Shown here in pieces: positions 1,011-62,300 of a stretch of 64,000 bases of DNA. Numbering within the stretch: position 1 is the stretch's first letter; each line of letters begins with the position of its first letter. The DNA is from Nereocystis luetkeana (taxonomy: Eukaryota; Sar; Phaeophyceae; Laminariales; Laminariaceae): contig JARUPZ010000021.1 in the NCBI GenBank assembly GCA_031213475.1, positions 3,944,438 through 4,008,437 on the forward strand, read 5' to 3'. The position numbers were made by a program, and so were the translations under genes. The notes beneath the pieces were generated by a model. That model searched no databases. It had not been told where the DNA came from and was given only the letters and a program-made list of their open reading frames with translations.

Positions 1011-1123
1011 TTGCAAGGGACCATAGTTAATAGGACCTATGATATACATAAAAACCTACCAGGTATATATTTAACCATTTATCACTAACAATATTTGGTC
1101 CTATTAACTATGGTCCCCCATAA
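1011..1123 (-). mobile_element. MITE family B, copy B1, inserted in the TAG microsatellite
   Basis: The arms GGGACCATAGTTAATAGG (left) and CCTATTAACTATGGTCCCC (right) are inverted copies of each other. The interior is the family-B core in reverse orientation. TAG arrays lie on both sides, so the element inserted into a microsatellite that offers a TA in every unit. The interior carries the extra TACCAGGTA motif at 1057-1065 that most other family-B copies lack. Confidence 0.9.
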
Positions 1124-1249
1124 AATAGTAGTAGTAGTAGCAGTAGCAGCAGTAGTAGTGCAGTAGTAGCAATAGTATTGTAGTAGTAGCAGCAGTAGTA
1201 GTAGTTTTAAATAGTAGTAGTAGGAGTAGTATAGCAGTACTGTAGAAGT

Positions 1250-1316
<67 letters not shown>

Positions 1317-1345
1317 CAGTAGTAGCGGAGGTAGTAGCAGTAATA
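1124..1345. repeat. (TAG)n microsatellite, second, more diverged array
   Basis: TAG/CAG triplets with several interruptions, then a clean run at about 1249-1315. It was probably continuous with the array at 828-1010 before the MITE insertion. Confidence 0.9.
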
Positions 1346-1794
1346 TTATAGTAGCGGTCGCAGTATTCATGTATTAATAGTACTATTTACTACCCCACTA
1401 TTTGTACGTAATATCAGAGCACATGAACCAAGATGGAGATATTATGTGTTAACTGATTGAGTGGTAGGATCGGGGGGGGGTGTCATTGCCCCCTCCCGGC
1501 CACGCCTACCACCACAATTTGCTTCTGATATGTTGGCCCCGACTGCTAATCAATCTTCCTGGTATATAGTTGACACTTCTTGGTGACATTCACAACTCGA
1601 TCCTTATCCCGCCATACACCATACTCAGCTTGCACTCTTACACGGCAGTACATGCTCCTTTCTCTCCCCGTTGCTGTGGTCTGCCCGCCTCGCTCAGAAC
1701 GACACAACGTGCGCGCACCTCGCAGCATTCCGTGCGCGGAAAACAAGAACTAAGACAAGAAAGTACAGAAAGAGAAAAGCACTACTAAGAGACT
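1346..1794. other. Non-coding stretch with short G-run
   Basis: Nothing recognisable apart from a G-run near 1471-1480. Open frames beginning near 1546 and 1570 show no family resemblance. Confidence 0.4.
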
Positions 1795-1798
1795 ACAA

Positions 1799-1812
1799 AA
1801 AGCAACAGCAGC

Positions 1813-1843
<31 letters not shown>

Positions 1844-1866
1844 CAACAACAACAACAACAGCAGCA
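1799..1866. repeat. (CAA/CAG)n microsatellite
   Basis: A CAA-rich triplet tract that reads as a glutamine/asparagine run in a 176-codon plus-strand frame (1671-2201). That frame is otherwise basic and low in complexity, and I do not treat it as a gene. Confidence 0.85.
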
Positions 1867-2990: not shown

Positions 2991-3019
2991 CGATTCCTGC
3001 GGGTATACCAGGTACCTTG

Positions 3020-3890: not shown

Positions 3891-3893
3891 AAA

Positions 3894-5982: not shown

Positions 5983-6094
5983 TTACGGGGGGGCATAGTT
6001 AACAGGACCAAATATTGTTGGTAAAAATTGTTAAACATATACCTGGTAGGTTTTTATGTATACCATAGGTCCTGTTAACTATGGCCCCCCGTAA
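5983..6094 (+). mobile_element. MITE family B, copy B2
   Basis: Bounded by TA on both sides, with TTACGGGGGGG at the left end and its complement CCCCCCGTAA at the right. The interior carries the family core GGACCAAATATTG. Like B1 it has an extra TACCTGGTA (6040-6048), compared with the uninterrupted TATATAGG of copies B6, B8 and B12. Confidence 0.92.
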
Positions 6095-6252
6095 TAAACA
6101 ACTTAGAGGTTGAGCGGCGAACGCATGCCGCAGTCTGCACATCGGACGCTTCGCCTCCCTTCCTCGACAACACGCCCCGATCCAAAGCAAACCACTAAAC
6201 GCGCGCGTGCATATCCGTTTTTTCATGTGTATGTTGCCTGTTTTCCCTTCAG

Positions 6253-6970: not shown

Positions 6971-7165
6971 AAACCCTTTAGGACTGCAGTCCTGTTTCGG
7001 GGAAAAACTATTACGGGGGGCCATAGTTAATGGGACCTATGGCATACATAAAAATCTATATATGTAACCATTTTTACTAACAATATTTCGTCCTATTACC
7101 TATGGTCCCCCCGTAATGCTTATATGTTGAGTGGTTTTGTCCCCAAAACGAGACCGCAGTACTTG
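6971..7165. mobile_element. MITE family A, copy A2, split by a family-B MITE
   Basis: The left arm (6971-7008, CCCTTTAGGACTGCAGTCC then a G-rich segment) and the right arm (about 7119-7165, with TGTCCCCAAAACGAGACCGC) are the two halves of a family-A element. They are separated exactly by the family-B element at 7011-7116. Confidence 0.85.
7011..7116 (-). mobile_element. MITE family B, copy B3, nested inside A2
   Basis: Starts TTACGGGGGGCCATAG after a TA and ends CCCCCCGTAA followed by TG. The arms are inverted repeats and the interior is the family-B core in reverse. It lies between the two arms of family-A copy A2, so B was active after A2 inserted. Confidence 0.92.
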
Positions 7166-7312: not shown

Positions 7313-7350
7313 GTACATACCGCCTCTACCTCGGGGGGACATACCTGGTA

Positions 7351-7455
7351 TTACGGGGGGGCATAGTAAATAGGACCAAATATTGTAAGTAAAAATAGGC
7401 AAATACATAGGTTTTTGTGTGCATCGTAGGTCCTATTTACTATGGTCCCCCGTAA
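7351..7455 (+). mobile_element. MITE family B, copy B4
   Basis: TA-flanked, TTACGGGGGGG to CCCCCGTAA, core GGACCAAATATTG. The left TA is also the end of a TACCTGGTA motif (7342-7350), so the element used the TA of that motif as its target. Confidence 0.92.
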
Positions 7456-7569
7456 TAGTATTCAGATCCCACTACACGTAGGGGCCCAAACACCAAGATA
7501 TCCCCCTACATTTCCCCACCATGTTTGGTTCTGATTACTATTCTACATAAGCCCTCCCGTAAATAGTAT

Positions 7570-8599: not shown

Positions 8600-10080
8600 T
8601 GTGCCAACTCAACGATTTTTACGGTATACCGGTATATGGCGTTGCGCCCGAGATAACACACAACTCTTCTCGGGGCGTAGTTTCATGCTGGTTTCCTCTA
8701 CCAAAGAAAAGCCGATCAGATGTTTGATCTCCAAGCCTCCACCACTTGCGTTATTTCGTCGCCTGTTCGCCCCCCCCCCCCCCCCCCCCCCCCCTGGTTT
8801 GGGGAGAAAATCGGCTCGGACATTTCATCCCGGAGCAGGCCATGTTGTATACCTGGTAGGAATTTCGATCTATTATTATTTGGTGTATTGTACCTTGTAC
8901 CAGGGGTACTCGAAGGTAGCTGCTATATTTAATAATGCCACTCTCTCACTATAATGTTTGCTCGAAGTACTGTTGATACCTGTACGTGTGATACGTACCT
9001 GCTGGTATATAAAATACCACTTTGTCCGCACATAAATACAAGGGCCTATATTGATATCTAAACAGAACGACCCTAGCAGCAGTTGGGGACAGAGTAGTAT
9101 CATACCAGGTATGTACCATATTTTGTCATCCGACAACGGTGTCGTTGTTGTTGTCCGACACCAGGTACCTGGTATATCACACAGCCAGAGTTGTTTATGT
9201 TTTCGGAACTCATCCCACGGTGCACCGTTTGTTTTGTCAGATTTTGTCTGACCGGTTGAGATCCTCAAGTCAGCAACTACAGCACTGCTGTGTGATGCGC
9301 TTGAACAACTTTGTGTGGTATTTTTACTACTCTCTCGGGGGCGTCCGTGAAAAAGATAAAAACGACACACCACGCCCCCAGAGATCGGTATGGAAAACCG
9401 CTGCTACCGTTGTGATCACATGATGGAATAAGAAGAAATAAAACAATGTTTTCTTCATTTTTTCATCTTTTTCGCTTGGTACTGTTAATATTAATAGTAA
9501 CCCCCCCCCCCCCCCCCCCTGTCGAGCAAAACAAAATACTGTCACGGTTCACATTTTTCCCCCCGGGCGCCCTTGACTCTGTACCAGTATTGGTGTAGCC
9601 TTTTTTAGGCCCTACACGAAGCGTTGGTCGGGTGGCGTGAACTATTAATATCAATAACTTGTTCGGGTGGGTGCTACATTGAGTTCCTCAGCATCATCAT
9701 CACCATCATCATGCGCGATGCGCGATCAGAAAAGCATGACACGACCACCGAAAGGCTTCGCTCCTCGTCATGAATGACGTTCTGTGCTAATAAGGCCGTA
9801 TCGAGCGAAGTCCGCGGCCACAAGAGAGGCTCCTCCAGCAGTTAGTTCTCAAACCGACCGATAGTTGACGGACAACCACCTGATTTATATTATCACGTAT
9901 CGTGTACGGTAAAAGCACGATCTCGCAGATAGATGTGTCCGTTGCCCACACAGGTGTGATGCACAATTATTAATTATTTGCCTCGCTGATGGTGGACAGT
10001 TTTGAATATTCCAACATTGAATATTCGATGGTTGGGCAGTGTCCTCGAGGTTGGTTTTTTGAGGTGGGGCCCTCGCGTCG
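8600..10080. other. Non-coding stretch with C-runs and excision-footprint-like motifs
   Basis: Contains pure C-runs at about 8770-8794 and 9501-9519 and exact TACC(A/T)GGTA motifs at 8850, 9103 and 9165. The last is a doublet, ACCAGGTACCTGGTA. No exon is recognised. Confidence 0.5.
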
Positions 10081-11748: not shown

Positions 11749-11778
11749 TACCAGGTACCAGGTACCACGTACCAGGTA
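11749..11778. repeat. Tandem cluster of TACCAGGTA motifs
   Basis: Four overlapping 9-mers sharing their TA dinucleotides: TACCAGGTA at 11749 and 11756, the variant TACCACGTA at 11763, and TACCAGGTA at 11770. Each unit adds 7 bp between TAs, as repeated insertion and excision at a regenerated TA would produce. Confidence 0.85.
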
Positions 11779-12539: not shown

Positions 12540-13380
12540 AACGGTATAATGTGAAAACAAGCACACACGCACACGCATACTCGTACGCACAGCACTCTCC
12601 CTGATGAATGACTCTGCTGACTCCTAACCGATGTTCCACCATTAAAATCTGAAAGCGTGACGCTTAACATACACGCTTCACCAATCAAGTTCGACCTACA
12701 AAAAAAGACGAAGTGCTCCAAACATTGTGTACCCCATCATCAATTTTTCGACACTCTCCTTACTACGGTAGCTATTATTGCTAGTACCAGGTATTGGATA
12801 TCGTTTGAGAAACGACGTCGAGACGATGCCGATAATAAAAAAACCGAATCGATACGATCTAGATACTTCATAGATTGAAGTCCTTTTGTTCAATAATGTT
12901 CGTGAAAAGCACAGGGATGCCAGGGGAGGGAGGGCAAGACAATTTCGATACGATACATAATCGAAACACGACGATACGATATCCAACACTACCTAATGTA
13001 ATACCAGGTACGTCTATACCGATGCTTCGCGAACACCGAACTACAACATGTCCGAGCAATAGTTCCTCAAACTAATTTCCTTCCCCGCTGGTCTATTGGA
13101 AAGATCGCTGCAATCCCATACGACCCTTCCTCCGTCTGACTCTTTTGAGTCTCCCCTACTCGGCATCTATGCGTCAAATCCACGCGCCATTGGCAGCAGC
13201 CCCCCTTTCCTTTTCCCTCCTCCCTCTAGTCGCTTGACGGTCCCGTAGTGCGAGCCTGCTTGCATGGCGGGCTGGTCGACGTGAGATCGTGACCTGAGAG
13301 GTCAATGATATTTTTGAGTGGAAGGCGTTCCTTGCCGATGCCCTGTCTTGGCCATACACCCCCTCCCATTCCCATTCATA
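12540..13380. other. Non-coding stretch with footprint-like motifs
   Basis: Holds TACCAGGTA at 12785 and 13002. No exon or known transposon is recognised. Confidence 0.4.
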
Positions 13381-13905
13381 TCGAGCTCTTGTAAACCGTG
13401 GCCCCCACTCCAGGTGATAAGCAATTTGCATGATTTGGTATGCCATTTTACGATGGTGTATGATGGGATGGTGGGGATGATGTAACATGATATGATATTA
13501 TTCTATACCTGGTACAGGTACGACAAACAATTAGGGGTGGAACGCTGGGACGGAAGACGGCCCGCTTTTCGAGACCCCGTGCCCCCCTGCTTCCCTCAAC
13601 GACGAGCTTCCTTAAACCGTAGCCCCTACTCTATAATTATGTTTCTTCTCTCAGGAAAGTGATGAGTGGTCAATGTTGAAGATCATGCCGCACATTTGTC
13701 GGACGGCAAGGGAAATAGTAATAATTATATGTGATATTGTATATTTTGGTGTGATGTGATATGGTATGTATGATGATACGGTACCATATGATACGAACCG
13801 TTAGGGATGGAGCGCTGGGACGAAGACGGCCCGGTTTCGAGACTCAGAGCCACCCTGGACGGTGGTAACCTGCAAAGGAGAGAGAAGTTCAACCTCTATG
13901 CGATC
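13381..13905. repeat. Degenerate direct duplication with a reverse copy of repeat H
   Basis: Two related blocks: one ends near 13580 (TGGAACGCTGGGACGGAAGA), the other near 13845 (TGGAGCGCTGGGACGAAGA). Both are preceded by AAACCGT(A/G)GCCCC-type sequence and a GATATG-rich tract. About 13660-13720 holds the only minus-strand copy of repeat H. A frame at 13807-13903 (MERWDEDGPVSRLRATLDG...) ends at a good donor, GTGAGTACG, but lies within the duplicated unit, so I keep it as repeat. Confidence 0.55.
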
Positions 13906-15080: not shown

Positions 15081-15270
15081 GGAAAAAAAAAAAAAAAAAA
15101 AAAACGAATCCTGTGGAATAGCCGGACATTTGCCACTCTGTATGCGTTGTATCTGGAAATTGTCGAATGTGTGTATGTATGTATGTATGTATGTATGTGT
15201 GTGTACCTGGTACCGGGTGTGTATGAAGCAATTGCAGACTGGCGCGGGGGGAGGGGGGGGGAGGGGGGGC
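15081..15270. repeat. Simple-sequence cluster: poly-A, (TGTA)n, G-rich
   Basis: A poly-A run at about 15081-15104, a (GTAT)n tract at about 15169-15200 ending in TACCTGGTA (15204), and a G-rich run near 15246-15270. Confidence 0.85.
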
Positions 15271-16886: not shown

Positions 16887-16990
16887 TTACGGGGGACCAT
16901 AGTTAATAGGACCAAATATTGTTAGTAAAAATGGTTAAATATATAGGTTTTCATGTACACCATAGGTCCTGTTAACTATGGTCCCCCGTA
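16887..16990 (+). mobile_element. MITE family B, copy B6
   Basis: TA then TTACGGGGGACCATAG; core GGACCAAATATTGTTAG; right end CTATGGTCCCCCGTA. Its interior reads TAAATATATAGGTTTT, without the extra TACCTGGTA of B1 and B2. Confidence 0.92.
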
Positions 16991-17031
16991 CTAGTACCCT
17001 ATCGTGGCCTTATACACCCCCCCCCTACACC

Positions 17032-17485: not shown

Positions 17486-18034
17486 AGGGCAACTACTATA
17501 AGCGATGTGTAAATATAAGCGAGTGTGTACGAGCCAGTTGCCACAGATGCTGTGCGTAGTTCTCGTGCGTCATGAAGGATACACTTATGTTTGACGGCAA
17601 GTAGCAACAGCAAACAGCACGTGCGCGTGTGTGCGTGCGTCTGCAGTCGTTTCATCATAAGCTCAATCAAACCGGAGAGCCATAGGGGTTTTGTTTTGAA
17701 GCCATGTGCATCCACTGCTATATTATACCAGGTACCACAGATACATGAAAGCTACGCCACGTTGCGCTGGAACGCAAGGACCGTTTGGCGAGTATCTTTG
17801 CATCTCCAGACAGTGGTATAGCATACCAGGAATAACTTACGTGGAAACCAGAACAGCATGTAATAGGAAAATCGAGGCAGCGATATCTTCTGGCCGCCAC
17901 CACCAGCTCAGTCTCCTTACCTTGTTGCTATCCCCATTCTTATCCCTAAGCTCATTCGTGATGACGTAGCAGGCGCCTACCTTGTCTGTTTTTGTTCAGG
18001 TTTTTGGCGTTTTTTGCATTCCCTTCGTTCCCTT
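17486..18034. other. Non-coding stretch
   Basis: Includes TACCAGGTA at 17726. No gene recognised. Confidence 0.35.
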
Positions 18035-18420: not shown

Positions 18421-18559
18421 GCTCGAATCTACACGTGTCTCCCTTTCTCTTTTATGTACCTACCCTCCAGGTACGAGTTATCACATTTTTGTGAATATTC
18501 TGAAATACCCAATACCTGGTACGAGTTATTACTTTTTCTGTTCTTGTTCCTGTTCTTGT

Positions 18560-18657: not shown

Positions 18658-18848
18658 ATCGTGATCCGCCGGCGGCTGCCCGTCCGTTTCGCTAATAATG
18701 TTGCTCTCTTGCACTATTTTCGGTCCTCGCTTGTCAGAGTAGTAGCTTGGCGACGACGTTGTTTTAGTGCCGTGCTTGCTCTTGTTTGGTGACCTTGATC
18801 CGGCGGCGCCTGCCTCTGTTCTCCTTCGTTGATGTTCTTCTTGCACTT

Positions 18849-18954
18849 CTACGGGGGACCATAGTTAATAGGACCTATGGTATACATAAAAACCTATATT
18901 TTTATCCATTTTTACCAACAATACTTGGTCCTATTTAATGTGGTCCCCCCGTAA
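18849..18954 (-). mobile_element. MITE family B, copy B7
   Basis: TACGGGGGACCATAG to GGTCCCCCCGTAA with TA at the right flank; core in reverse orientation (ACCAACAATACTTGGTCC). Confidence 0.9.
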
Positions 18955-19599: not shown

Positions 19600-20395
19600 C
19601 AGAACCCAAGATGGACTCAATGAATAACATACCTCCCCCCCCCCATGTCTAAAAAATGGTCATGATTACTCCTCCCCCCCCGTAACACCAAGAAAACGAG
19701 CACTAAGAACGGCGGGCTGATACTTACACGGGAAAAATAAGAAATGCGGGGGTCATTATTGCACCGATTGCGGTGTACAACGCACCCTTTCTCGGATTAG
19801 AAATCCACCCTGGAGCAGCTTTCCTGTTTTCCGTTACGGGTAGGTGTTTGGTACTGCTGTACGGTGTGGTCAGGTGTATCCGATATGCACCAAAATGCTA
19901 CCGCAGGAGACTGCTCTTTTGGGCTTCATAAAAATGTGTTTTATGTTGGGTTTTTTGGGTAATACCTGGTAGCAATTAGACGTCTCAGACGTTTGGGTTT
20001 CGGAGATAGATGGGTGAAAAGGTCAGGAATATCAGCTGTTTTTTTTTTTCTCATCATATATCATAAATAATACCAGGTACCTGGTAGTTGATATTATTTT
20101 GTTGTTGATTACTTTTTTACAGTTTTTCTTTTTCTTTTTTTCGATAGCAGCGGCCCTTTTAGGGCCTAAAAAAAAAAGAGCAAAATCTCCTGTGCGATAA
20201 ACGTGTACCATGGTACAACGTTTTTGGTACGTACAGAGGAGGGAGGAGAGCGCCCGCCGTGTGACCTCGGATCTAAGTCGCAAACCGGTGGGGGATGAGG
20301 AAAATGGGAACGTTCATGCCATTCGGGGGAGAGGAGGGGGGAGCCGGGTAGGGCAAACACAACACAGTCAGTTAGTAGATGGGATGTTTTTCCAT
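19600..20395. other. Non-coding stretch
   Basis: C-runs at 19636 and 19674; TACCTGGTA at 19963; a TACCAGGTACCTGGTA doublet at 20071-20086. No exon recognised. Confidence 0.4.
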
Positions 20396-20659: not shown

Positions 20660-21769
20660 GAAGTTGAAAAAACATAAGTGTGCGAAAACGAAATGCTAGA
20701 AAATATGGAAATTTAGGACCATAATCCCTTCCCACACAAACGGCCCTCATAGGATGCATCGATTTTTCCTCAATCTCGGTTTTCGGGTAAGGCATGGAGC
20801 TACCCTCATATCATGTATATCAAAGTGAAATAATACCTGGTATGATAAGAAGCCGGAGAAAATGTCTTGAGTGCCCGTTTTCGAAAACGAACGCGAAAAT
20901 GAACCTTTTCTACTACTATAGAATAATTTTATTTACAGCAGGTATCTTGTGTCTTGCCCCCTTGTCTGTTGGGTGTTGGATCCTGTCTCTTGGGCCTAGA
21001 TTAGTATTGGATCTTGCCTTGCGTCTCTTGGAGCGTCGCCTCTTGGACTTTTTGTTTTGTTAGATTTTGGGTATCGGTTCACGTCTATTGGGGTTTTATT
21101 TAGTTCAGTAGATCGTGGATCTCAGATCTTTTTTAGACGTTGAATTTTGGATCTTGAACTTGCTACAGGAGCAGCAGTAGGTGCCGCTTTCCCATGGCAT
21201 GAAGGGACTCCTGAAAAATATTACACCCAACTTTTTCAATGGGAAAACATGTTCTGGGGCCCCAGGAACCGATTTCTTGTCCCAACATATCCGTTTTGTC
21301 ATCCTGGAGACGATAAAAAAAAAACACCGATCAACTCCTCGAGATCCGCACCCGGTAAAAATAAATTCGGGCAATGTTTGTTAGTTGGAACAACATTGAA
21401 GGGCTCATGATGCTGTCTACTATTTTACACATTGTTCGGATGGCGATACATAATGAATACTTGATCGTAGACCCGACTCATTCCACGGCAATGCGAAGGT
21501 TGACGGCTTATTTTCTGAGGTCCTATCCACATGAAGAGCTCGACCGACCATCCCACCCGACACATGGCGCTTCGAGGAGCGTTTGGTCGCGCAAATCTGC
21601 TGTAGTTTGTAGGTGCCATCCGATGACCAATTGTTACATGCGCTGCTGCTATTTAATACCTGGTATAAAATTACATACACACCAACAAAATAAAGGAAGG
21701 GGGGTTCACCACTTACTCGAGCAAATGGTTGACACGCCCTGTGTACTCGAGTTGCACCCCGACCTCAAA
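20660..21769. other. Non-coding stretch, nothing recognised
   Basis: TACCTGGTA motifs at 20834 and 21657. TTGGATCTTG-type words recur around 20970-21150 but show no clear period. No exon recognised. Confidence 0.35.
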
Positions 21770-22310: not shown

Positions 22311-23126
22311 TGTAGAACTAAGCCCAACCTTCAGGCCAATCAAACACAGTCAACCATTGGCTGGCGTGATTTCCTTTATCTCGTACCTGGTACAAAGTAG
22401 TCTACCTCAACCATTTTCTCGAGTAAGTGGTAAAATCTCTCCTTTTGCTAGACCATCCATTAATAGTTTATGTGAAAATTTTCAAGGGGTCTCACAACTG
22501 GCTTTTTTTGCCGAAAACCGGCGATTTACTCGACGGGATAGTCTAAAATACCGGTAGACTTCTCAGGATAATCCTTTTAGTTTTCCGAGAGCTTTCTCGA
22601 GCACTTTTCCGTTTCTCCCGAGTCGTAGTTGGACTGTTCGCCCATATTTCCAGTTCTGAGGGCATCATGATTTTTCATCAAAAATCCGGTAAGATCCAAT
22701 ATTTCTGGCCCCAGTTCTGACCAACAGCCTTATTTCTGAGCCTCCAGAGAAAACTGATTGGCTGCTCCAAAAAATAAACCAGGAATCGGGAGTAACGGAA
22801 AATTCCTCCTGAAAGCTCGCAAAAAACTACGGAGAGCATTTTGAGAAGTCTGAGGGTGTTTTAGGCTTCCCCGCCGAGAAAAACGCGCATATTCGGCCTT
22901 ACAACTCAGTTCTGAGAGCTCAGAAATAATTTCCCATAATAGTTGGTCTAAAGTGTAACACTATTAAAATAAAACTAACCGGTACCTGGTATATACCATT
23001 AGCTGCTGACTTAAGGACCTCAACCGGTCAGGAAATATTGCCTCGGAAAGCAAAAAGTGCAGCTCCGACCGCAGAACGAGTTTTTTTTTTTGCTACGTGC
23101 TGCTGCTGTTTGTGGAGGGCGATATA
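22311..23126. other. Non-coding stretch
   Basis: TACCTGGTA at 22384 and 22983. Several TTTCTGAG/CTCAGAA words occur around 22660-22930, without a clear element boundary. Confidence 0.35.
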
Positions 23127-24897: not shown

Positions 24898-25170
24898 GAG
24901 TCTGCCATCCCCGACAACATGTAGCATGGATTTCGACGGTGATCACCCACAAACATTAAACGAGCTTGCCATCCTCGAGAAATATGTAGCGTGAACGTCA
25001 ACGGTGATCGTCCATAAACATTTCCCGGACAATGAACAAAACCGAAGGGAAACAATAACAAAACCAAAACCTATTGGCCTACAGTAAGCAGACTACTGGA
25101 TTATACCAGGTAGTAGCCTATTGGACTGCAGTAGCTTTGGCGGTGATCACTCGTAATATTTCCCGATGTA
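24898..25170 (+). repeat. Dispersed repeat H, two partial copies plus second half
   Basis: GCCATCCCCGACAACATGTAGC and GCCATCCTCGAGAAATATGTAGC are followed by CCTATTGGCCTACAGTAAGC. The long-copy segment contains TACCAGGTA (25104-25112), absent from the equivalent place in the copy near 30040-30070. Confidence 0.75.
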
Positions 25171-39344: not shown

Positions 39345-39488
39345 ATGAAATACGTCAGCTGTGAGTTCGACTGATTATATAGTTGATACTCAACGCTGCA
39401 AGCTGCGTAGTATGTCTCGTCTACATATATCCCATTTTTACTGAATTTCCAAATTGTACTATGATAGGCCGTTCGCGCGTACCTGGTA
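39345..39488 (+). repeat. Sequence shared with the Tc1-like element at 56525
   Basis: GAAATACGTCAGCTGTGAG, GTTGATACTCAAC, GCAAGCTGCGTA and GCCGTTCGCGCGTA run in the same order at 56608-56740. The match breaks at a TACCTGGTA (39480-39488) where the other copy has just TA. Confidence 0.85.
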
Positions 39489-40244: not shown

Positions 40245-43200
40245 CTGGCCTTTTCTTTTGTACGTGTTTTGCTGTTCTCTCGTTTTATGGCCGTTTGCTT
40301 TTCTTAAGAGTGTTTGCGCTTGGTATTTCCACCACACACGATGGAGAGTCAAGAGGACGGAGGGCCTGCTTGATCCCCTCGCGATGGCTACGGCATTGGG
40401 TCCTAGACCCCCGTCTGCAGGCCATTGTTCGAAACCAGTAGATGACCCTACGTGCTGCCTGGCAACATGGGCCTAGCGTGACTCCCCCCTTGGTGATACC
40501 GCATGCAGTGCTTCTGGGCCATGGCATACGGATACATTTCAATAGCCGCTTCTACCGCTCCCTGCCACCTCGACCGTCCGACCGTTTGCGTGTTTGGCGA
40601 GCTGGAGTGAGGTCACCACTCCCCGACAGGCGTGTCATCTTACGCCATCAAACCCGTCGCTTCTGATGGAGGCTTACATCGACGCTTACGGGGGGCGCTA
40701 TATAGGCGTCACGCCGCCCGACGAGCCGGAACTACTTGCACTCGACTTCGTTCACAGCGATGGCTCCCCGGCACTCACTGGGCACTACTTAGTTGGCATC
40801 ATGTCCCAGTCCGACCTGCCCTCGGTTGGGGAGTACTTCGAAGCTCCCGGGCAACAGATTCTCCCCCTCGTCAGAGTGGCGGATCTCGAGCCTGGCGATA
40901 TCGCCGGAGTCGCCCACGCCTCACTTATGAACGCGCTGCCGGATGGTTTACAGCACAATCACCGAGCCTCCAGCCCTTCCTGTGGTCTGTCTGAGGTGTC
41001 TCCGGTCTCTGTCGTTACTTCACCTCTCACGGCTCCAGCCTTGCCCTCGCCTCCCCTGCGTGCGCGTTTACGCCGCGAACAGCGCGCTTTGTTCCTGCGC
41101 GTCTGGGTACGTCTGCTGGGTTGCATCTGCGAGCGGTAACATTTGGCCTTCACGGAGCGGACTGGATTCCGGAAGCCATATCGAACAACTGGGGGGCGTT
41201 CTTTGTGAACTACCTGACGTTTTCTCAAAGTACAAGACGGGTTTGGGTTACTGCGTGTTGGATGCCTTTCGTTATTTCGGTCCCGGAAGGAAGCGCGCCG
41301 GTCACGTCCCGGCCACGCCGCATCAATTCCCTCGTGGCCATTGAAGGCTGCACCTCCTCGGACCAGTACCTTGCGGCAGGTCTGACCCAGCACTCGGCCT
41401 CTCCTTATCGCTGCCTATCCCCTGCGTGGACCAGATCCTCGAGTCCTTGGGGAAGGGGCGGGTGTGCTTCCTTTTGGATGGCCGCACACAAGGACACCGT
41501 TCCTGTCATCGTGTTTGATACTCCCACTGGTCTCTACGAGTAGCTCGCCATGCCCCAGGGCCATCAATGCTTCGTCCCGCTGGTTCGCCAAAGCGATTAA
41601 CGAATTTATTCGGGGTTTGGAACAGGTGGCCGCCTATCTCGACGATGTGCTCGTGTTTGGCTCTGATTCGACGGCCCACGTAAAGACTATACGAGCCCTA
41701 TTCGATCGGCTGCGCAAGCGCAACCTCAAGCTCTCTCACTGGAAGCCTCGCCTGAGCGCCACGGACGCGGATTCGCTGGGCCATTCTTTTTCGCCCGAGG
41801 GTGCACGTCCAAAAATGCGGAAAATGTGCCGGCTTTGATGAAATTGCCCTTGCTCCAGAGTTTCAAGAAGATCCGCGCGCTGATGGGGGCAGACTTTGGT
41901 ACTATCAAAAAATTATGTTCGACATGTATGTCCAAGTGGATACGCCCTATCACCGCCCTCCTCCGGAAGGGGGTTAAGCACGACCTAACGCCGGCTATGG
42001 AGGTTGTCGTACGCGAGATTCTCATCGAACTCGCCACTGCACCAAGTTTGGTCTTCCCTGACTGGGGCGACATAGCCGACGGCTCTCGCCCTTGCCACGT
42101 GTCCTGCGACTCCTGTATCGGCTGTTTGGGAGCCCCGCTCGAACAGGAGCAACCGGGCGGTTCGGTGCTACCCATCGCGTGCATCAACCGCGTTACCCTC
42201 TCCATTCCTAGAGGCACTGGACCCCGCTGGACTTGGACGCTGGCGGCATAGTCTGGGCCATCAAACGACGTCGACGTTACCTATGGGGCACCAAGGTTCG
42301 CATATTTTCGGGCCACAAAGCACTCACGAGCATCGGCAAAGAAGGGGACTTCAACGCACGCGTCTAGCGGTTGCTCGAGTGGTTCACGCTTCATTCGACT
42401 ACGCACTCCAGTACCGAAAGGGCAGCACTAACGGAAATGTTGATGTTCTGTCCCGTTTGCTGGAGTTCGCGAGACCGAACACAACCGCAGTGGGTCTAGC
42501 AGCCTCACCCCCGTCGAGGACGTCGGCATCATTCGCATCCGAGCGCCTACGGGCTCCTCGCTCGCTCTTCGCCGACCCCGGTGTCGGCTTGGGCGAACTG
42601 GTACCCCGCCCCAATATCTCCGTTTCGGGCGGTCTGCCTTTCACCTCTTCGGATGTTCGCGAGTTTCGTCGCACACGGACTGCGTGCGAGGATTGACGGA
42701 CAATAGTTCTGTTTCTACGGGGAGATTCGCCGCTCGTCGATCTGCTTTAGTCACCACCGTCGATTGCCGTCATGGCCGTGGGAAAAACTCACCTACCACC
42801 AACGCCGCCTTCGCTTCGGTTTTTGTCGCGCCCTCAAGGGGCGGTAAGGGCTCGGCAGAAGCCCCCGCTGCCGAGAGAGCCGTCGCCCAGGATACTCTTT
42901 CTCCCGATGAGCACTACATGAGGAGAAGATTCCGCCGCGATCACAGATCCGGCCGCGTCTACCCCTTTGACGCCCGGCAACCCGGTGCCGCTGACTGTTT
43001 TGCCGCCTTCGGGCCGCATCTCCACCCGGACGCCCCGAAAAACAACCGCTGCCACCGCCTGCTGTTGATTATGACTTCCGGTCCGGCGAGGCCCCTAGAT
43101 CATCCGCCCGGCGCGCTATCACTCCGCCGTAAGTCCCACGGTCACGACCGCCGCTGGCCGTCATTATAGCCCCTGATCCTGCCGCCGCCCCTGTCCCGAC

Positions 43201-45480
43201 GGTACCCATCCCGTCCGACCTCGACCGCGCCGAGCCTGTCGAGACTCTTCTTCCAAGACTTCCGCCGCCGACTTGCCTCCCGTCCGTTACCCCGGCCGAC
43301 TTGGATGCCCTCGGCGCAGCTGCCGAATCGAAGTTCAGCGATTCCGCGGCACGCTATTCGCACTCCGACAGGGCGCGGGAGCAACAGGCCGAGCCCGCGT
43401 GCAATGCCGCCATGCGCTACATATAGCACGGCCGACCAGGCACATTGCCAGCAGATGTTTCGTCGCGTTTTCCTTCACGCCAGTACCTTTTCTTCTCGGA
43501 GGTTCAGGAGCTTGCTGGCAAAGGATGCCCAATCACCACCGACGACGACATCGTCCTGCTCGTCCGACAGCTGTCTCCACCCCCGACACCTGAATCGTAG
43601 CGCCCAATGGACCGCACGGCTTGTTTGTTGAAGAGCGAGCTTCTTCGCATTTAGGTACAACTACTCATGCGCCCCCCGGAGTCATCCAGGCTTGCCACTC
43701 CACAGTTTCCTGCCCCCTGGGAACCGCGGGAACCCTGCGCGTGCTCGAACGTTTCTCCCGGTGGGTCAGTATGAGCATCTGCATCAGGCGGTGGCTACGC
43801 AACTGCTTGAAGTGCCAGGCACGTAAAACCCCGCAGCAGACGGTCCGGTGGCCCATCATCTCGACGCCCCTGGCAGAAGGGCCCGGCATTGTTGTCAGCG
43901 TCGGTGACCTCCATCCTCTTCCGGCCACGCCCCGGGGTAACACCTACACCTTGCTCTTCACTGATCGTTCCAGCCGCCAACCCGACATGTTCGCTGTCAC
44001 TGCAGCTGAATTCATCGCCGAGGACACGCCCAACGTTCGCCCCAACCGGTGTTTTCCCCTCTGGGGGTGCCCGCGCAGCATACGCTCGGGCAACGGCCTC
44101 CGGTTTTGCTCGAAGCATTCGCACGCCGTTCATCAGCTCTTCGGTGTTCGGAAATTGCCACCAGCTCCTACTACCCAAACGGTGGAGTGGAACGTGGAGA
44201 CCACACGAAGTCCCAGATGCTGGCGATGGATATCAACGGGATCCAATACAACTGGAATGAACGGCTCCCTCAAGTCTTATTTGCGTACAGCATTTTTGTC
44301 AGCGCCGCCACGGGTTTGACTCCCAACGAGTCCACATGGGTCGGCTGCCACGTCTCCCTCTCAAGGTTCCCTAGCTTGTTGGGGCGCCGGCCACCAGAGT
44401 TTGGCCCGCGACCACCTCGCCTACTGTGACATGGCGACGGACGGCGAGAAGCGTTTTTTATGATATCGTCCGCAAGCACCACGCCCGAACCGTTGCTCGC
44501 GTGAACCGGCGGTGCAACTCCGCCCTCTCCAATGCACTGCGTCCGGCCCCCCCCAAAAAAATCGTCGTTGGTGGCTGGGTGGTGGTGTACAACACGGCTG
44601 CCGCCACCCGCCAGGGCGCGAATACTGACACGGGCGTCAATGTCCTCAAGGCCAAGCTCTCGCTCAACCGGACGGGCCCCTACAAAGTTCTCGCAGCTGG
44701 CCCCTGCTCCTCCGCAAACACCCCGGACGGACCCCCTCTAGGTAGTTGGATCTGCCTTCCGATATGCCCGACGCTGATGCTCGCCGGCGCGTATCGGTAC
44801 AACGCTGCAAGCTCTGTGCCAACCGCTACGACCGTGGCGACATGCCGAAGTATTGTCCTATCGGAGTTGACGCAATAAGTTCTCAACAACTTCTCCCAAA
44901 ACAACTGCCCGCATCACGTCACCCAAGGCGATTCCCGGACACCAATCGGTCCGGGGTCGAGGTGGGGCCATCCCAGTCATGTACGAGGCCCATTTGACAG
45001 GACTCTCGCGACCGCCCTGACAACGGGAAAATGACATGTAGCTCTTTCACCTCGAACATTCACGCTACTGGGCTGGCACACCCCGAACCAGCACCATCAA
45101 ACCAACCGCCTGTACCGCTGGATGAAAAATGGCGCGGCACAGCGGGAGCTTCCTCTGAGTAACGGCGAGCGCTTCCTGGCACCCGGCTATGGCTGCGTAC
45201 CGCAAGCCGATCGGCTTCGTCGATACAACACCGCCGTGATTCCCAGCGGGGCGCACTGTTGATAAAACGGCGACGACGGTCTGTGGTGGCGCTTGGGGCA
45301 TTCAGTGCGATAACAACCACGCATGGGGTATATTTGGTTCGGTTTTTGGACTACCCGGGACAGACTAAGCTTCCTCTTTCTACGGCGCTCTGCACGACTT
45401 TAGCGGGAGCTGTACGAGGTTCTTGTAGTCTACAAGTACACTTGGCCAGCGCGTCCGCGCGGGGGCGTCCCGCGTAGCGT
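40245..45480 (+). pseudogene. Decayed Ty3/gypsy gag-pol internal region
   Basis: Plus-strand frames broken by many shifts and stops preserve the Ty3/gypsy pol order. 41190-41350: the segment before RT (LPDVFSKYKTGLG and PEGSAPVTSRPRRIN in adjacent frames). 41350-41830: reverse transcriptase, with its catalytic YLDD at 41635-41646 (YLDDVLVFGSD). 41900-42465: RNase H region (RPITALLRKGVK, YALQYRKGSTNGNVDVLSRL). 42466-43640: a low-conservation linker. 43690-44430: integrase, with the H-H-C-C zinc region ending CLKCQARK, core TYTLLFTDRSSRQPDMFAV and YYPNGGVERGDHT. At about 44685: the GPY/F motif (RTGPYKVLA). 45100-45477: a C-terminal domain with GVYLVRFLDYPG. The segment 40245-41150 should hold gag and protease, but I could not identify them. 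The element is inactive. Confidence 0.9.
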
Positions 45481-46445: not shown

Positions 46446-46688
46446 ATCTGACCTTACTACACTATCCCTTGGTAAGTAACGCGTGGATACGTATATATTG
46501 GAAAACCCTAAACTTTCGAAAATTACAGCAGCGCCCCACGCACAGCACACACCGCACAACCGCGCATAACGAGGCTGGGTGCATTAGCCTCGCCTCATAC
46601 TCTCCTGTACTTTGTTACAAGTACCAGGTACATGCTGAAGTAAAACAATAGAAAAAGTTGATAACATTTTCTTTGTCTATTTTTCAGG

Positions 46689-52066: not shown

Positions 52067-52248
52067 GACCTTTTTTTTCGCGGTCGGTCACATTTGGTGG
52101 CCGAATTAGCTCATTCGTGCGAGGTGAAGGATCTTTTTATTCCTCACAAGGGGGGAATGACCGTACCCCGTACCTGGTAGTGTTTATGGTAAGGCATCCA
52201 AGAGGCTGTTATATGGCACTCGCATTGTTGTCTCTGGAAGTAGCTCGA

Positions 52249-52869: not shown

Positions 52870-53589
52870 ATTTGGATGCTGGGCAATGCCCACCAGCAGC
52901 CACTACCGAGGTCTTGCGCTCGCCTCAATGGGCGGGGGGTGTCAGCCGCACCCTTGCAGCTACTAACAGACAAACCGGAAAAATGGGAACGAAGCCTAAA
53001 ATGAGAACCAAGCCGTATCTCCAGAACCATGTGGTGTATCAGAGAACCAAAATGATCCTGCTAAACCCCTTGGCCAGCCCTGTGAGAGGAGCTCGTCAGA
53101 ACGGTCATGCTCCATCTCGTGCCTTCGGGTGGGCGCAAAAAGCGATATACGCTGGCTCTATTGTGATTTCTCTAGATGCTGGCTACCGCGGCGATGCCGA
53201 GGACTTCCAGCCTGAGCGACAGCTCATTCGAAGGCTGCTGTACAGCCCCACAGGACTGTCAACTTTTTTTCTTGGAGTTGTACACAATTGGTCTGCTTTC
53301 TAAAAAAAACCGTCCGTTCCCATTTTTTGTTTCGTTCCCATTTTTCCGTTTTGTCTGTTTACTGTGTACGGCACAACTACGGCCAGACGATTCATCCAAC
53401 CCTTCCATCATTGTGCATCAATTAGCCTAGTCTCGGGGGTCGCGTTCTTCGTGTTGAGCGATGTAGCATCAGCGTAGAGACCTTGTGCCTGCAGGCATCA
53501 CATAAGACGGCGCCGCTGCAGCACCAGCAGCAGTGTCTTCTCTGTGCCCGTACCAAAAGACTACCTGGTATAATAGCAACAACAGCGGC

Positions 53590-56405: not shown

Positions 56406-56906
56406 AGCTGGAGGTTGTGACTATACCGTGCAGTCATCGGGGGATCCCATCGCGTGCTGGGAGCGCGACGGGGGGTAGGGCAAAGAAATGGGAGGATGCG
56501 GCCACGAAAGACGGTTGCTACATACCAGTCTGACCGTAAATATAAGCAACTTTAGGACGTTTTGCGGCATAACTTCTACTGTTTCATGTATATTTAATAA
56601 AATGATGAAATACGTCAGCTGTGAGTTCGACTGATTACATAGTTGATACTCAACTTTGCAAGCTGCGTAATATGTCTCGTCTATATCCCGTTTTAACTGA
56701 ATTTCCAATTTTTATGATAAGCCGTTCGCGCGTATATTGACCCCGTTTTTTACATCGGATTCGTGGGAATCTCACTGGAACTCCCAAATCCGAGTTTTTC
56801 GCAAAACTCGAAGTTACGCCCTCGCTCGTGCTACCCCACCAACCAGCAAACTGAGCTCCCGCGCGGCAATCGCCGGTAGAAGGCCTTCCTGTCTGGTGTT
56901 GGAAAT

Positions 56907-57190
56907 GCCACCTTCTGGAAGTGCTCGCGAGAAGGTGCCCAGAAACAATCTGAACGAAAATAAGATAAGTCGGTTGATTTAACACCTCCTCTCAGGCAGT
57001 AAAGGAGGCAAACTTAGGCCGGGCGACCTCAAAAACGCTGCCAAAGAGTTCTCATGCTCCTGCTATCAAGTCATGGGCGTGTGGAAGCGCTACAAGCAGC
57101 AGAAGGAGGATGGTGTCGTGTCCGCGTCGCGGTGCGCACTTCGATTGCGTTCACGAGGAATGTGGTGGCGCGTGTCGCCGGTGCGCTAGG
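56907..57190 (+). pseudogene. Tc1-like transposase, N-terminal helix-turn-helix region only
   Basis: From an ATG at 56907: MPPSGSAREKVPRNNLNENK, ISRLI, an in-frame TAA, then HLLSGSKGGKLRPGDLKNAA, KEFSCSCYQVMGVWKRYKQQ, ending at a TAG near 57189. The LL-x-x-SK-x-GKL-x-x-G pattern followed by AA-x-x-F and a VWKR helix is the N-terminal DNA-binding region seen in Tc1-like transposases of stramenopiles and others (family knowledge). The DDE catalytic domain is missing and an internal stop breaks the frame. Confidence 0.65.
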
Positions 57191-57368
57191 TTAACGAAAA
57201 AAAAAAAAGTGAAAATTATGAGAAAAGTGAAAAAAAAACGGGGATGGTATCCAGGCATCCCCTGGCCACCCCGGGGATTTTTTACGACCCCACCCGCCCC
57301 CTGAATGCATACTGACCCGTTTTTATGCTTCTGACACACTTGAATCGCCTTGTTTTCACTGTTTTGTG

Positions 57369-57690
57369 TTGTTGCTTATATTTACGGTCTTACTAAAGTT
57401 GCTTATATTTACGGTCTTACTAAAGTTGCTTATATTTACGGTCTTACTAAAGTTGCTTATATTTACGGTCTTACTAAAGTTGCTTATATTTACGGTCTTA
57501 CTAAAGTTGCTTATATTTACGGTCTTACTAAAGTTGCTTATATTTACGGTCTTACTAAAGTTGCTTATATTTACGGTCTTACTAAAGTTGCTTATATTTA
57601 CGGTCTTACTAAAGTTGCTTATATTTACGGTCTTACTAAAGTTGATTATATTTACGGTCTTACTAAAGTTGCTTATATTTACGGTCAGAC
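57369..57690. repeat. 27-bp tandem array derived from the element's right terminus
   Basis: About 12 near-identical units of GTTGCTTATATTTACGGTC followed by TTACTAAA. One unit has GATTATA instead of GCTTATA. The unit matches the inner part of the 31-bp terminal repeat. Because 27 is a multiple of 3 and the unit lacks stops in several frames, it gives long spurious frames on both strands. There are no spacers, so it is not a CRISPR array. Confidence 0.97.
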
Positions 57691-57899
57691 TGGTACCTGG
57701 TATAGCACTGGGACACAAAAAGGGGAGGGTGCGGCGTTCGAAAAGGGCACACGCCCCCCCCCCCCGCTTCCCTCCCCTCATACCCCCCTCCTCTCCTCTC
57801 CAAATAATTTAGACACGACAATGCAACACGACACAGCATAAGAGTGACGCGAGCTCTCACAAAAACGCAACCAGCCGCGTGTGGGTCGGTCGGGTCGGC

Positions 57900-58130
57900 C
57901 CGGATCGAGGGGCAACCATTCGCGAAGGCCCTCACGCCACGCCACACCATCCCACGTCATACCATACCATGCTACGCCAAGCCGATACCATACCATGCTA
58001 CGCCAAGCCGCCAAGGAAGAACACTAAAACTCCCGACTCCGGCTCGGGCTCCATCCCCTCGTCTCCTCCCCCACACTTACGTGATCGTCGCGTACAAAGT
58101 AGTCTGACGCAACTGGTACCCTGTAGACAT
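57900..58130. repeat. Short C/A-rich repeats (ATACCATGCTACGCCAAGCC)
   Basis: ATACCATGCTACGCCAAGCCG occurs twice in tandem (57964-58010) within CACACCATCCCA-type sequence. An A-run lies at 58141-58160. Confidence 0.75.
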
Positions 58131-58492
58131 TTTGTCACAAGAAAAAAAAAAAAAAAAAAAACTCCGAACAAATACTATAGAGCTAAAAATACAAACTAGT
58201 GTAAAATCTTGCACACATCGGGGGGAAAACGTTAAAATGTTTTACAGTGCGGAAAAATCACCGATCCCCACTGCATGGCCGACATGTTTCAGAGCAGATG
58301 CGGTCATACATTCCTGGTTTTTGTATGACGTGGAGTTCATGTTCCCGGAGGGGGGACGGGGGGGGGGGGACCAAAACCGTAAAATCTGCTCGATCAAGTT
58401 CGGGGGGGGGGTATATTAACAGTGATCAGGACCCATCACATACACAAATATATATATATATATATATATATATTATTCCAGCATGTTTACTA

Positions 58493-58603
58493 TTACGGGG
58501 GACCATAGTTAACGGGACCTATGGTATACAAAAAAACCTGTATATTTACCTAATTTTACTCACAATATTTGTTCCTATTTACTATTAATATGGCCCCCCG
58601 TAA
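58493..58603 (-). mobile_element. MITE family B, copy B11
   Basis: TA then TTACGGGGGACCATAG; reverse core (ACTCACAATATTTG); right end ATGGCCCCCCGTAA then TA. A (TA)n tract lies just upstream (58449-58474). Confidence 0.92.
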
Positions 58604-58826
58604 TATTAAATCAGCCTATTTTGGTCCTGACTGTCACGTTCCCTGGTTACAACTAGCACACATTTCCTGAGTCGGATCTGTACTACAAACAGATCCCAGA
58701 TCCCACACGACAGCTCATTAACCGCCGGTTAACGGGATCTGCTGCAGGACACGTATAAAATACTACCGTACATCCTGATATATCCGACGTGTGAAACATT
58801 TTTTTTTTGTATTTCTTCTTCGGGTC

Positions 58827-58966
58827 TCACTTTTCTTTCTTGTCCTTCTTTGCCCTGTCTCGAACCCGCTTCTCCAGCTTGCCCACCAGCTTCTTCGCCG
58901 CATCCCCCAATCCCCACTCGTCAAAGTTCCCCTCCAAATCGAAGTAACCCCCGACGTTCCACGTCT
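58827..58966 (-). CDS. SPCS2: SPCS2 last exon
   Basis: Acceptor GAACCGATCAG, then AG|ACG TGG. Two bases complete a Glu codon with the phase-1 end of the previous exon. It encodes [45 protein letters not shown] and stop TGA. The composition is typical of the cytosolic C-terminus of this subunit. Confidence 0.93.
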
Positions 58967-59242
58967 CTGATCGGTTCAACACACCAAATGTGCGCACGCG
59001 GGGGGGTACAAGGGGTCAGATTGGGGTAGTGGGGGTGGGGGGGTGAGGGTGTCGGGGGTGTCGGGGAGGGTGAATGGGTATGGGTGGGGGCTGGGTGAGG
59101 ATGGGTGGGGGTGGAGTCGGGGTGGCGGGGGAAGGGAGGGGGGTTAGCCGGAAATCAGCCTCGGGGTATGGGTAAACTAAAATGCGCGATCGAAGGAATA
59201 GACAGTCCGTGCGTCACTACAGTACGTCTCTCTCTCTCTCTC

Positions 59243-59331
<89 letters not shown>

Positions 59332-62300
59332 GGAAGACAGCCAGGCGCCACAACCCCCCACCAAAATGACCACGTAGGGCGAGCAACAAATAAATACGCT
59401 CCTCCCCATCCCCACCCCCCCCCCCCCCCGTCCCGGCCTTGTAGGGATGCGAGGGTCTATGCTCATACGACTACGGCCATGCATGAGATCGAGTACATCT
59501 CTTGTATCGAGTACACCCCCCCCCTTCCCCGCCCACCTTCTCTCTTCGATGACTACGAGCGAATGCGAATGCCAGTTTCCATCACGTCGCCAAAACAAAC
59601 GATAGGGTCAGCACTTTTTTTATGTATGTCACTGGGACTGGCGGGGCTTCTCAACTGAGGGAATACCCAATAAGCCGTACGCCTCGTAAGGCATGCTTGC
59701 CTTAGCACCCAATAAGGCATGCCTCACCACCGAAATAATACCCCACAAGGCTTGCCTCGTTACCGAAAAAAGGCAAGCCTTAGCATCCAATAAGGCATAC
59801 CAGGTATGCCTGGAAGGAATGCCTTATCGCTGGAGAAAACCCTCTCATGATTCGGTGTATTATACCTACAGGCCATGCATAGCACCGTTCATCGAATTGC
59901 ACTTTCATCCTTCTTTCAATCCGAGTGTGTGGAGTATGGTCTAGACTAGAGCGGATCAACCTTCTCTTGGGACCATACTTCAAAGGGGAAAACTGACGAC
60001 ATAAAGGGACGACTACAAGATACGGCCACCGCGTGATTGGGCGGTGGGGGGGGGGGGGGGGCGGGGGGCGTACTCATTTGTTGCTTGCCTTAGCCATTTG
60101 ACCATTGACCACGCATCCCGTTCGAGACGGAGCAGGGGGGGGGGGGGGATACAAACTGGTGTCCGAGTCACAATGGTTGCATGCAAGGGGGTCGCGCAGC
60201 ACGGCACGGCCGCAAGATGATCCGACCCGTGTACGCCTGAGGTTAGGGTTGTCCTCAATCTGCTCGCAGACCGTTTCTTCAACACCAAAAAATGTCAAAA
60301 ATCGTTATTTTCGTCGATGATGATATCTCGGGTCACATATCACGACCCAAAAACGCGGAGATAACTTTGGAGTTATTGTTCGTGCATGTAACCGCCACAA
60401 CACACACGAGTAGCGACCAGGCAGACACAAACATCCCTGCTGGGAGAGCCCCTGTTCCGGGTGGGCATGTGTAATAACCAGAACCCACGACGGACCCGAA
60501 AACACGTTATTTCCCCCCCCCCCCCCCCATGTTTTACGCCCCGCATTTTGGTCCTGATAGCCTTGTTCCCCCATAAATAGCGACAGCTCGTGTCAGCAGT
60601 GGTCCCTGACCTGAATAGTGCCGGCTGGGTATGATAGTGCCGGCTGCCTCGCTGTAGTGCCGGTGCAATCGCTTCGTACACAAAGGACCAACCGGTGTGG
60701 CAAATGTGCATAATAGTGCCGTTTGCCGCTATAAATAGTACCGGTATTGCTAGGCTGGGCGAAAACCGACATTGCTTGTGTACGGACCACTACGGAACTA
60801 CCGTATCTCGTATTAGGCACCAACCTTCGATGGCCTTGGCGCCCGGCTTTCTCTCCTCCACGGACATGGTGTAACGCTCGTCGAACCGTGGGAAGTCCGT
60901 CCGCACTTGCATTCCCTTCCGCAGCGACCCGGTTTTCTGCCGCATTTACGAAGAAGATATATGTCAGCCACGTTCTCTTTTCGGGTGCTCGTTTTCCACG
61001 GGTATATCTCGTGTGCCGGCGGTGGGGAGGAGGCCCCGGGCAGGTTACAACCTTCTCGACGTATGGTTGTGACGCGTGGAGTTCATGCACACCGAGATGG
61101 CGGGTGTGGGTCGGGAATAACACGGCCTTGGGTGTGACCCTTGAGCTTGCATATAACGAGGTGCCTATAGGGGAAGGGGGCCGGGTATATATCCACAAGT
61201 TGGATGTTTTCAAGATATTGTTACTGTGAAAGAAGCATCAGCATCAGGCGTCGACGAACAGTAAACTAGAACGGTGGAGCATACATACTGTGATATTCAC
61301 ATCAAGAAAGGGGGGTGCATGGTGTTTCGGTCGATCATGGGTTATGACTAGTATGGCTGACCCCAAGGAATATCTGAGGATTTCCGGATCCTCCGGTAAA
61401 AAATGCATGTCTGAATTCGGAAACATAACACAGTTCACTTGAAGCCGTTTGGAACAAAGTGTTTTGACAAAGAAAACGAAAAACAAAAACGATAAAAACG
61501 AAAACAAAACGCAGAACAGAAAAATACGACGGCCCCAGGGGTCGAACTGACGCCGTCAGACTCGCAGGTCCTCAGGTGAACCTGACCTACTTCGGTAACT
61601 ACTGCGTAACGTGAGGTGTTCTGCGAGTAGCACGAAGTGTGATCTGCGTCCTACCACGTAGACCCACGCATCTCATCTCTACAATCCCCGGACGGAGGGA
61701 GGGGGGCGGGGGGGGGGGGGGGTAGCACAATAACAGTGCACGGTGAGAGCACGGATCGCGCTCTTTCACTGGTGCGCTCATTCACTTGTTTGTGAGTGCT
61801 ATCATCGCGTGGGCGGTCGAGTTGGGGCGGGATGCGACGTTCCTCACCCCTCTTGCGGTAGCCAGGATAAGGTCCCTCTCCCAGTACGTCACGATCAAGT
61901 GCAACCCAAGGCTGCATGCGAAGTAACTGCCACGAAACAAGAGGTGGGGTGCGCGCGGGGGAAGGGTAGGGACAGACGGGGGGGGGTGTGCTCATTATCA
62001 TGCATGGCCGTAGTCGTGTGACCATAGAGCCTTGCATCTCTACAATGCCGGGACGGGGCACGTCGGGTTTTCACCGACAAGGAAGGCATATTGCTTACAC
62101 CAAGGGCGAAGCGCCGTGAGGCGTGGGGTGAGCCGCTTGAAGGGTGACACAAAAATCAGGACCGAACATCCTTTCCAGCAGCTCTTTGTCTGTACGACGG
62201 ATCCTGATCGGCATGGCTCATCGTGAATCACTATTATTCCAGGTTGACCACTACTACACCGCGGCGGCGACCGGCCACGTATAATCAAAACCTGAAGCAG

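Follow-up and report, generated by a model that had tools for sequence, protein, structure and literature searches.

The abundant palindrome TACCWGGTA of the kelp Nereocystis luetkeana as a very probable excision scar of CCAG-ended Tc1/mariner elements

Scars and elements in the window

The subject of this work is a 64-kb stretch of the Nereocystis luetkeana genome (contig 21, positions 3,944,438-4,008,437; hereafter the window), which contains many copies of the interrupted palindrome TACCWGGTA together with a transposable element that begins and ends with CCAG. We consider it highly probable that the palindrome, referred to below as the scar, is left behind when a cut-and-paste Tc1/mariner element of the plant type (DD39D), or one of the short non-autonomous elements derived from it, is excised. 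The exact-match count in the window is 31 (13 copies of TACCAGGTA and 18 of TACCTGGTA), the number at which an earlier note on this DNA had arrived approximately; its expectation of about 0.5 copies likewise agrees with Markov models of orders 1-4, which give 0.43, 0.40, 0.49 and 0.89 (order 5, which already contains most of the motif, gives 4.5). Of the other interrupted 9-mer palindromes centred on A/T, the most frequent occurs 6 times in the window.

No strand is assigned to the scars. Exact copies of TACCAGGTA are located at 3006-3014, 9103-9111, 12785-12793, 13002-13010, 17726-17734, 25104-25112, 46622-46630 and 59798-59806, and exact copies of TACCTGGTA at 8850-8858, 13506-13514, 15204-15212, 18513-18521, 19963-19971, 20834-20842, 21657-21665, 22384-22392, 22983-22991, 25378-25386, 39480-39488 and 53562-53570. 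Several further copies are informative with respect to their surroundings. The TACCAGGTA at 1057-1065 lies within a miniature inverted-repeat transposable element (MITE) of the TATTACGGG type, at a TA where sister copies have no insertion and the locus L089, discussed below, has an element; the TACCTGGTA at 6040-6048 is found at the corresponding position of another copy of this MITE. The TACCTGGTA at 7342-7350 has its right TA in common with the end of a MITE, the repeat boundary being located there; the one at 52171-52179 corresponds to a plain TA in the paralogue L012 (76% identical), and the left TA of the one at 57694-57702 doubles as the right flanking TA of the CCAG-ended element. The TACCTGGTA at 9166-9174, which is preceded at 9159, 7 bp upstream, by a unit with one mismatch, is the only copy for which the position in the earlier note (9165) has to be corrected.

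Some scars are arranged in tandem and share TAs, as in the doublet TACCAGGTACCTGGTA at 20071-20086 (units at 20071 and 20078) and in a chain of four units at 11749-11778. The latter had been described as a quadruplet, of which three units (11749, 11756 and 11770) are indeed exact, and the fourth, at 11763, carries a single change (TACCACGTA). The scars are spread unevenly, with 25 of the 31 in the first 25.4 kb. The G+C content of this part (1-25400) is lower than that of most of the remainder.

The CCAG-ended element (56525-57693, forward strand, 1,169 bp) is a non-autonomous member of the Tc1/mariner group and was found by scanning for inverted repeats of the form TA-CC...GG-TA, with CC as the sole requirement on the end sequence. 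Each of its ends starts with CCAGTCTGACCGTAAATATAAGCAACTTTA, and the flanking TAs are at 56523-56524 and 57694-57695. On the same strand it contains a remnant of the N-terminal part of a transposase (56983-57132), of which 46 residues align at 72% identity with an open frame of 468 codons at another place in the genome, and a 27-bp tandem repeat that includes the subterminal sequence (57371-57686, 11.7 copies). Two decayed MITEs, to which no strand is assigned, have similar ends: one of about 80 bp at 28187-28268, with 3 + 2 mismatches to the pattern of the terminal inverted repeat (TIR) given below, its left TA retained and its right TA altered, and one of 79 bp at 62961-63039, with TA on both sides, one mismatch to the TIR pattern at the right end and a left end recognized by eye.

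The scar is not a peculiarity of the window. In the genome assembly (465,085,209 bases, 1,987 contigs) there are 182,395 exact copies against 1,744 of the reversed control, so that the genome-wide count that the earlier note had called for exceeds the control about 100-fold; with up to one mismatch the numbers are 367,383 and 66,255. This corresponds to a density of about one scar per 2.5 kb. For analyses of context we used a sample of 264 kb, composed of the window and twenty 10-kb stretches, each from a different contig, which contains 85 exact scars: 31 in the window and 0-10 in each of the other stretches.

Elements with CCAG ends and their transposase

The earlier note had postulated elements with CCAG termini, and such elements exist: in addition to that in the window, we found them at the loci L051, L072 and L089. 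Their ends read TA|CCAGTC...GACTGG|TA, and they comprise, besides the window element, a family of 574-599 bp, a family of about 80 bp and a 2,016-bp copy with a transposase frame. This last copy, L072 (contig 3, 5,833,390-5,835,405), is complete, with TA on both sides, a perfect 22-bp TIR (CCAGTCCGACATTTTATATAGG) and an open transposase frame of 492 codons. L051 is a 574-bp copy with both ends present and TA on both sides, in which the longest open stretch has 112 codons. The TA is duplicated on insertion: it flanks all four elements, and paralogues of the L089 site have an empty TA.

A search with the TIR pattern TACCAGTCTGNNCGNAAATATA gave 56 matches in the genome, two of them in the window; all were read, and removal of five with redundant flanks (four tandem sisters of L049, plus L084) left 51 loci. 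The 574-599-bp family accounts for 11 of the 51. Elements of about 80 bp were identified at 11 of the first 38 loci by a strict match of the second end and at 33 of the 51 by a permissive one, with two loci overlapping with the 574-599-bp family. Both families with the CCAGTC TIR are MITEs and, as read, contain no transposase gene. A TIR scan of the viral contigs gave no matches. On C9, an end of the 574-bp family occurs with identical flank at 5355034, 5478739, 5592385, 5706125 and 5819694, i.e. at a spacing of about 114 kb; these five copies probably represent a large tandem segmental duplication.

When the 50-residue remnant from the window element was used as a protein query, at least 32 places in the genome were matched at E values up to 1, at least 29 of them below 0.002, and at five places the frames are open over 409-560 codons. 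The open frames at L029 and L030 belong to copies with rearranged or missing ends. The 468-codon product of L029 matches HTH_Tnp_Tc3_2 (PF01498), a helix-turn-helix (HTH) domain, with 32.1 bits (cut-off 31.5), and that of L030 with 31.4 bits, 0.1 bit under the cut-off. Other similarities are weaker: the L029 product scores 26.3 bits with DUF7769, just under the cut-off of 27, the IS630 model gives 38.7 bits (cut-off 100), Mos1 is matched by sequence with an E value of 0.02, and a profile search of the genome with DDE_3 (PF13358) gave no match. A relative 86% identical to the L029 product (P0001) has an AlphaFold model with a confidence score (pLDDT) of 89.6; among solved structures its predicted fold is closest to Mos1 (E value 4.8e-14) and also matches the catalytic domain of Sleeping Beauty (8e-8). 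The protein has the characters of a Tc1/mariner transposase, with a Tc3-type HTH and a predicted RNase H-like core of the DDE/D type.

Within this core, D334 and D374 of the L029 product are invariant in 11 of 11 aligned proteins and D213 is conserved in 10 of 11. The spacing between D334 and D374 is 39 residues (DD39D); D369, at a spacing of 34, is invariant as well, and, following the plant convention, we take D374 to be the catalytic Asp. Among the best 120 of 175 homologues, the nearest named ones are from Laminaria digitata (86% identity), Ascophyllum (75%) and Ectocarpus and Pylaiella (57%), and those beyond the brown algae are from angiosperms and oomycetes (33-42%). These neighbours point to a brown-algal host, with the reserve that transposons may pass between species. 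Judging from the open frames, gene copies encoding an intact enzyme are apparently still present in the genome.

Empty, scarred and occupied target sites

Each scar was compared with the 264-kb sample by alignment of the motif plus its flanking sequence, the motif being retained in the query. A spanning paralogue was present for 10 of the 85 scars with flank, and of the 57 alignments of these ten, 37 lack exactly 7 bp, two retain the motif, two have it substituted and 16 contain other gaps. Control palindromes of the form TAxyWyxTA were alignable at 8 of 15 sites, and their 161 alignments include 33 in which the motif is retained and none with exact absence. The description of the motif in the earlier note, as a 7-bp insertion at TA relative to sister copies, is thereby borne out. 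Two scars in the TATTACGGG-type MITE, those at 1057 and 6040, account for most of the 37 exact absences; in another case, the scar L013:1888, three copies have TA, with identity of up to 98% once the motif is reduced to TA. As most sister copies read TA, the motif is the derived state at these sites.

The TATTACGGG-type MITE also provides the most complete comparison of states. At L089 (contig 11, 3,511,340-3,512,250) it is interrupted by a 599-bp CCAG-ended element, and the flanks on both sides of the site align throughout with those of its sister copies. The corresponding TA is empty in five aligned copies (at 16.9 and 30.6 kb of the window and at L019, L024 and L025) and scarred in two, those at 1057 and 6040, where it reads TACCTGGTA in the alignment. 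The two scarred copies may go back to a single event, common by descent. Thus the empty, footprint and occupied states, whose comparison between strains had been proposed in the earlier note, are all observed at one TA, here among paralogous repeat copies of one genome. At a second site, occupied in L050/L051, the paralogue L028 (flank identity 86% on the left and 82% on the right) reads TACCGGTA, i.e. the scar without its middle base. In addition, L060, a copy of the 574-bp family, has a doublet scar where its sisters have TA. The partial flank paralogues L053 and L078 did not reach an alignable site.

Two observations concern the surroundings of such sites. The CCAG element has repeatedly targeted an abundant MITE-like repeat (TATTACGGGG...CCATAG...), which is found in the window at 1009-1119, 5987-6096, 7007-7111, 7355-7459, 16891-16995 and 18845-18949. 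At L079 (C35:2632140-2632371), a fragment of the left end of the element is followed by a scar and then by MITE flank, which resembles an incomplete or nested excision.

Footprints and occupied ends have a target rule in common, TANNNNR-TA-YNNNNTA. In the flanks of the 85 sample scars, A/G is found at -1 in 74 and C/T at +1 in 69, and a TA seven bases from the scar occurs at 34% per side, compared with 7% for all TAs. The 51 non-redundant occupied ends have R at -1 in 42 cases (background 60%, p = 9e-4) and TA at -7 in 15 (background 7%, p = 1.3e-6). Accordingly graded is the share of sample TAs that are scarred: 1 of 1,894 with neither side R/Y and no TA at seven bases, 25 of 4,088 in the R-TA-Y context, 25 of 608 with one TA at that distance and 5 of 28 with both.

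The palindromic form of the motif, its abundance and this symmetric preference in the flanks would also suit a conserved site bound by a host DNA-binding protein and kept or spread by selection. However, sister repeats differ by an exact 7-bp insertion at TA, the same site can be occupied by an element, and the flank rule equals that of the element's insertion sites. Moreover, one-mismatch forms are in excess and rich in transitions, as in neutral decay: the sample contains 84, of which 45 are transitions, and five control motifs have 37-62 such forms, with 32-39% transitions. We therefore regard a protein-binding site as very improbable.

The rule also accounts for the tandem scars. Since the scar includes TA-N5-TA, its own TAs resemble favoured targets, and tandem scars are therefore expected. 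The 81 scar loci include four chains of two units, which means that 4 of the 162 outer TAs (2.5%) were hit a second time. For ordinary TAs of this context the share is similar (4.1%), and the target rule alone thus explains the chains. A scar adjoins an element at 4 of the 51 occupied ends.

Two features of the window lie outside these subjects. A palindromic repeat of about 96 bp, found at 5689, 11788, 12415, 14247, 19485 and 23690, has ends like TTAACCC...GGGTTAA, as in a piggyBac-type MITE, and the region 40500-44900 contains several broken open frames that look like parts of a retroelement.

Mechanism, balance and relation to known systems

The TA target and its duplication, the CCAG ends, the derived state of the scar and the target rule are seen directly in the aligned elements and repeats, and a scheme of excision can be built on them. 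The element inserts at TA, preferably within TANNNNR-TA-YNNNNTA, and duplicates it, as the paralogues show. On excision, the transposase would most likely cut so that both flanks retain the four outermost bases of the element, CCAG, in the form of 3' overhangs; three bases of these, CAG and GAC, would anneal around a central A:A mismatch, and the host would fill one base per side and repair the mismatch in either direction, yielding TA-CC(A/T)GG-TA, much as the earlier note had proposed. The scars have accumulated over a long period and are worn down by point mutations. Judged by the sequences of scars and ends, the motif has the build of a Sleeping Beauty-type footprint, in which terminal bases around one A/T are enclosed between two TAs. 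The overhang logic is known for Sleeping Beauty (PMC3878927).

Complete fill-in of 3-nt overhangs predicts TACCATGGTA and that of 4-nt overhangs TACCAGCTGGTA, which occur twice and not at all in the sample. Among other spacings, TACC-N0-GGTA is found 14 times, TACC-N2-GGTA 25 times and N3 to N6 4-7 times each. We take TACCGGTA, with 14 sample sites, a partial TA context (25%) and its occurrence at the L051-type site, as a minor scar variant. TACCSGGTA was rejected as a variant, as it lacks the TA context (11 sites, 5%). The Sleeping Beauty-type sequence TACWGTA is not counted here as a scar of the CCAG element: it is 2.7-fold enriched but lacks the R/Y and TA context, and exactly 5 bp are absent in 5 of 23 of its paralogue alignments. 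In the sample, TATTAATA is 42-fold above expectation.

The same product would arise directly, with no filling, if the elements ended in CCWGG and a 5-nt overhang paired over its full length around an A:A or T:T mismatch; the left ends of L030 and L071, which read TACCAGGAGTC and TACCTGGAGTC, are of this kind. However, this type was seen at one end of two copies, whereas the ends free of search-pattern bias read CCAG (both ends of L072 and the right ends of L051, L089 and L029), as do both ends of the window element, for which only CC had been demanded. CCWGG ends as the source of the scars hence appear improbable to us.

Several points weigh against excision of CCAG-ended elements as the origin of the motif. 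The 56 TIR matches come from a pattern that itself demands CCAG and provide no independent test of the end, and in the transposase-bearing copies L030 and L071 the left end is altered and reads TACCWGGAGTC instead of TACCAGTC. Spanning paralogues are available for only 10 of the 85 scars, a single MITE family providing most of the exact absences. A looser test, in which the motif was reduced to TA and at least one TA copy was asked for, did not separate scars (7/13) from TACWGTA (5/9) and controls (5/8), and was superseded by the stricter test for absence of exactly 7 bp. The states are compared across paralogues of one genome, and excision is inferred from sequence. Finally, there are few recognizable elements compared with the number of scars, most of which therefore have a source that is gone or decayed.

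The last point can be put into numbers. With up to three end mismatches, five elements are recognizable in the 264 kb, compared with 85 scars (at four mismatches chance dominates, with 6.2 matches in shuffled sequence); the strict genome pattern suggests thousands of scars per element, where the sample measures 85 to 5, a balance in which decayed or lost elements are left uncounted. Such a shortage would be expected if TA-flanked elements were removed by a programme at a set time in development and the assembly were the somatic state. Ciliates offer a precedent; their eliminated segments are TA-flanked. However, the scars are inherited, because copies of one repeat differ in scars, which appear to decay with age, and the assembly still has occupied sites; we thus give programmed removal very little credence.

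The excess over the control amounts to 180,651 exact scars and 120,477 one-mismatch forms. With input taken as constant and decay as neutral, a simple model translates this into some 404,000 events, spread over a span of about 0.2 substitutions per site; these figures are rough because the one-mismatch excess contains other variants. It is tempting, if rather doubtful, to consider that the mariner system ran in an excision-dominated mode, leaving most of the sites it entered, with few elements, a dated ledger of some 400,000 hops and scars that renew themselves as targets. If so, excision would be uncoupled from lasting reinsertion or promoted by the host.

Among known systems, Mos1 mariner shares the TA target and is the best fold match of the P0001 model. 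It is of the DD34D type, and its footprint differs from TACCWGGTA. Minos, a Tc1-like element, has a four-base overhang and footprint, and its ends and host differ from those of the present element; we know of no genome-scale record of Minos scars. Sleeping Beauty and Frog Prince have a TA target and a footprint made of the element end around a central A/T, C(A/T)GTA (PMC3878927). The present system departs from these in its CCAG ends, a scar longer by two bases, a DD39D transposase and a number of scars in the hundreds of thousands. The plant mariner-like elements (Osmar, with Stowaway MITEs) share the TA target, the DD39D spacing, the Tc3-type HTH and the short non-autonomous partners; the DUF7769 similarity, just under its cut-off, and the 33-42% identity to angiosperm homologues are further likenesses, but the plant TIR is CTCCCTC and not CCAGTC. 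Stowaway footprints are described as variable, with 1-4 bp of the TIR retained (PMC1925063), and rice mariner insertions as exceeding excisions 2.6-2.8 to 1 (PMC4423477); the kelp scars differ in scale, in uniformity and in the direction of this imbalance. The Tc1-mariner families of Ectocarpus (PMC12477816) are likewise brown-algal and have a small non-autonomous partner; a term check found neither "footprint" nor "excision" in the main text of that article. No account of a TACCWGGTA scar, or of such a scale, was found among the matches listed from open-licence PubMed Central. A Tc1/mariner footprint is in itself of a known kind; what is unusual is the scale, the constancy of the product and the degree to which scars outnumber recognizable elements.

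The excision of DNA transposons has mostly been studied in assays or at few loci. With one stereotyped scar, the target choice, the repair outcome and the age of very many excisions become readable from a single genome. As each scar is a 7-bp insertion, the process would constitute a major source of small insertions in this lineage, and the native transposase with its open frame is a candidate genetic tool for brown algae.

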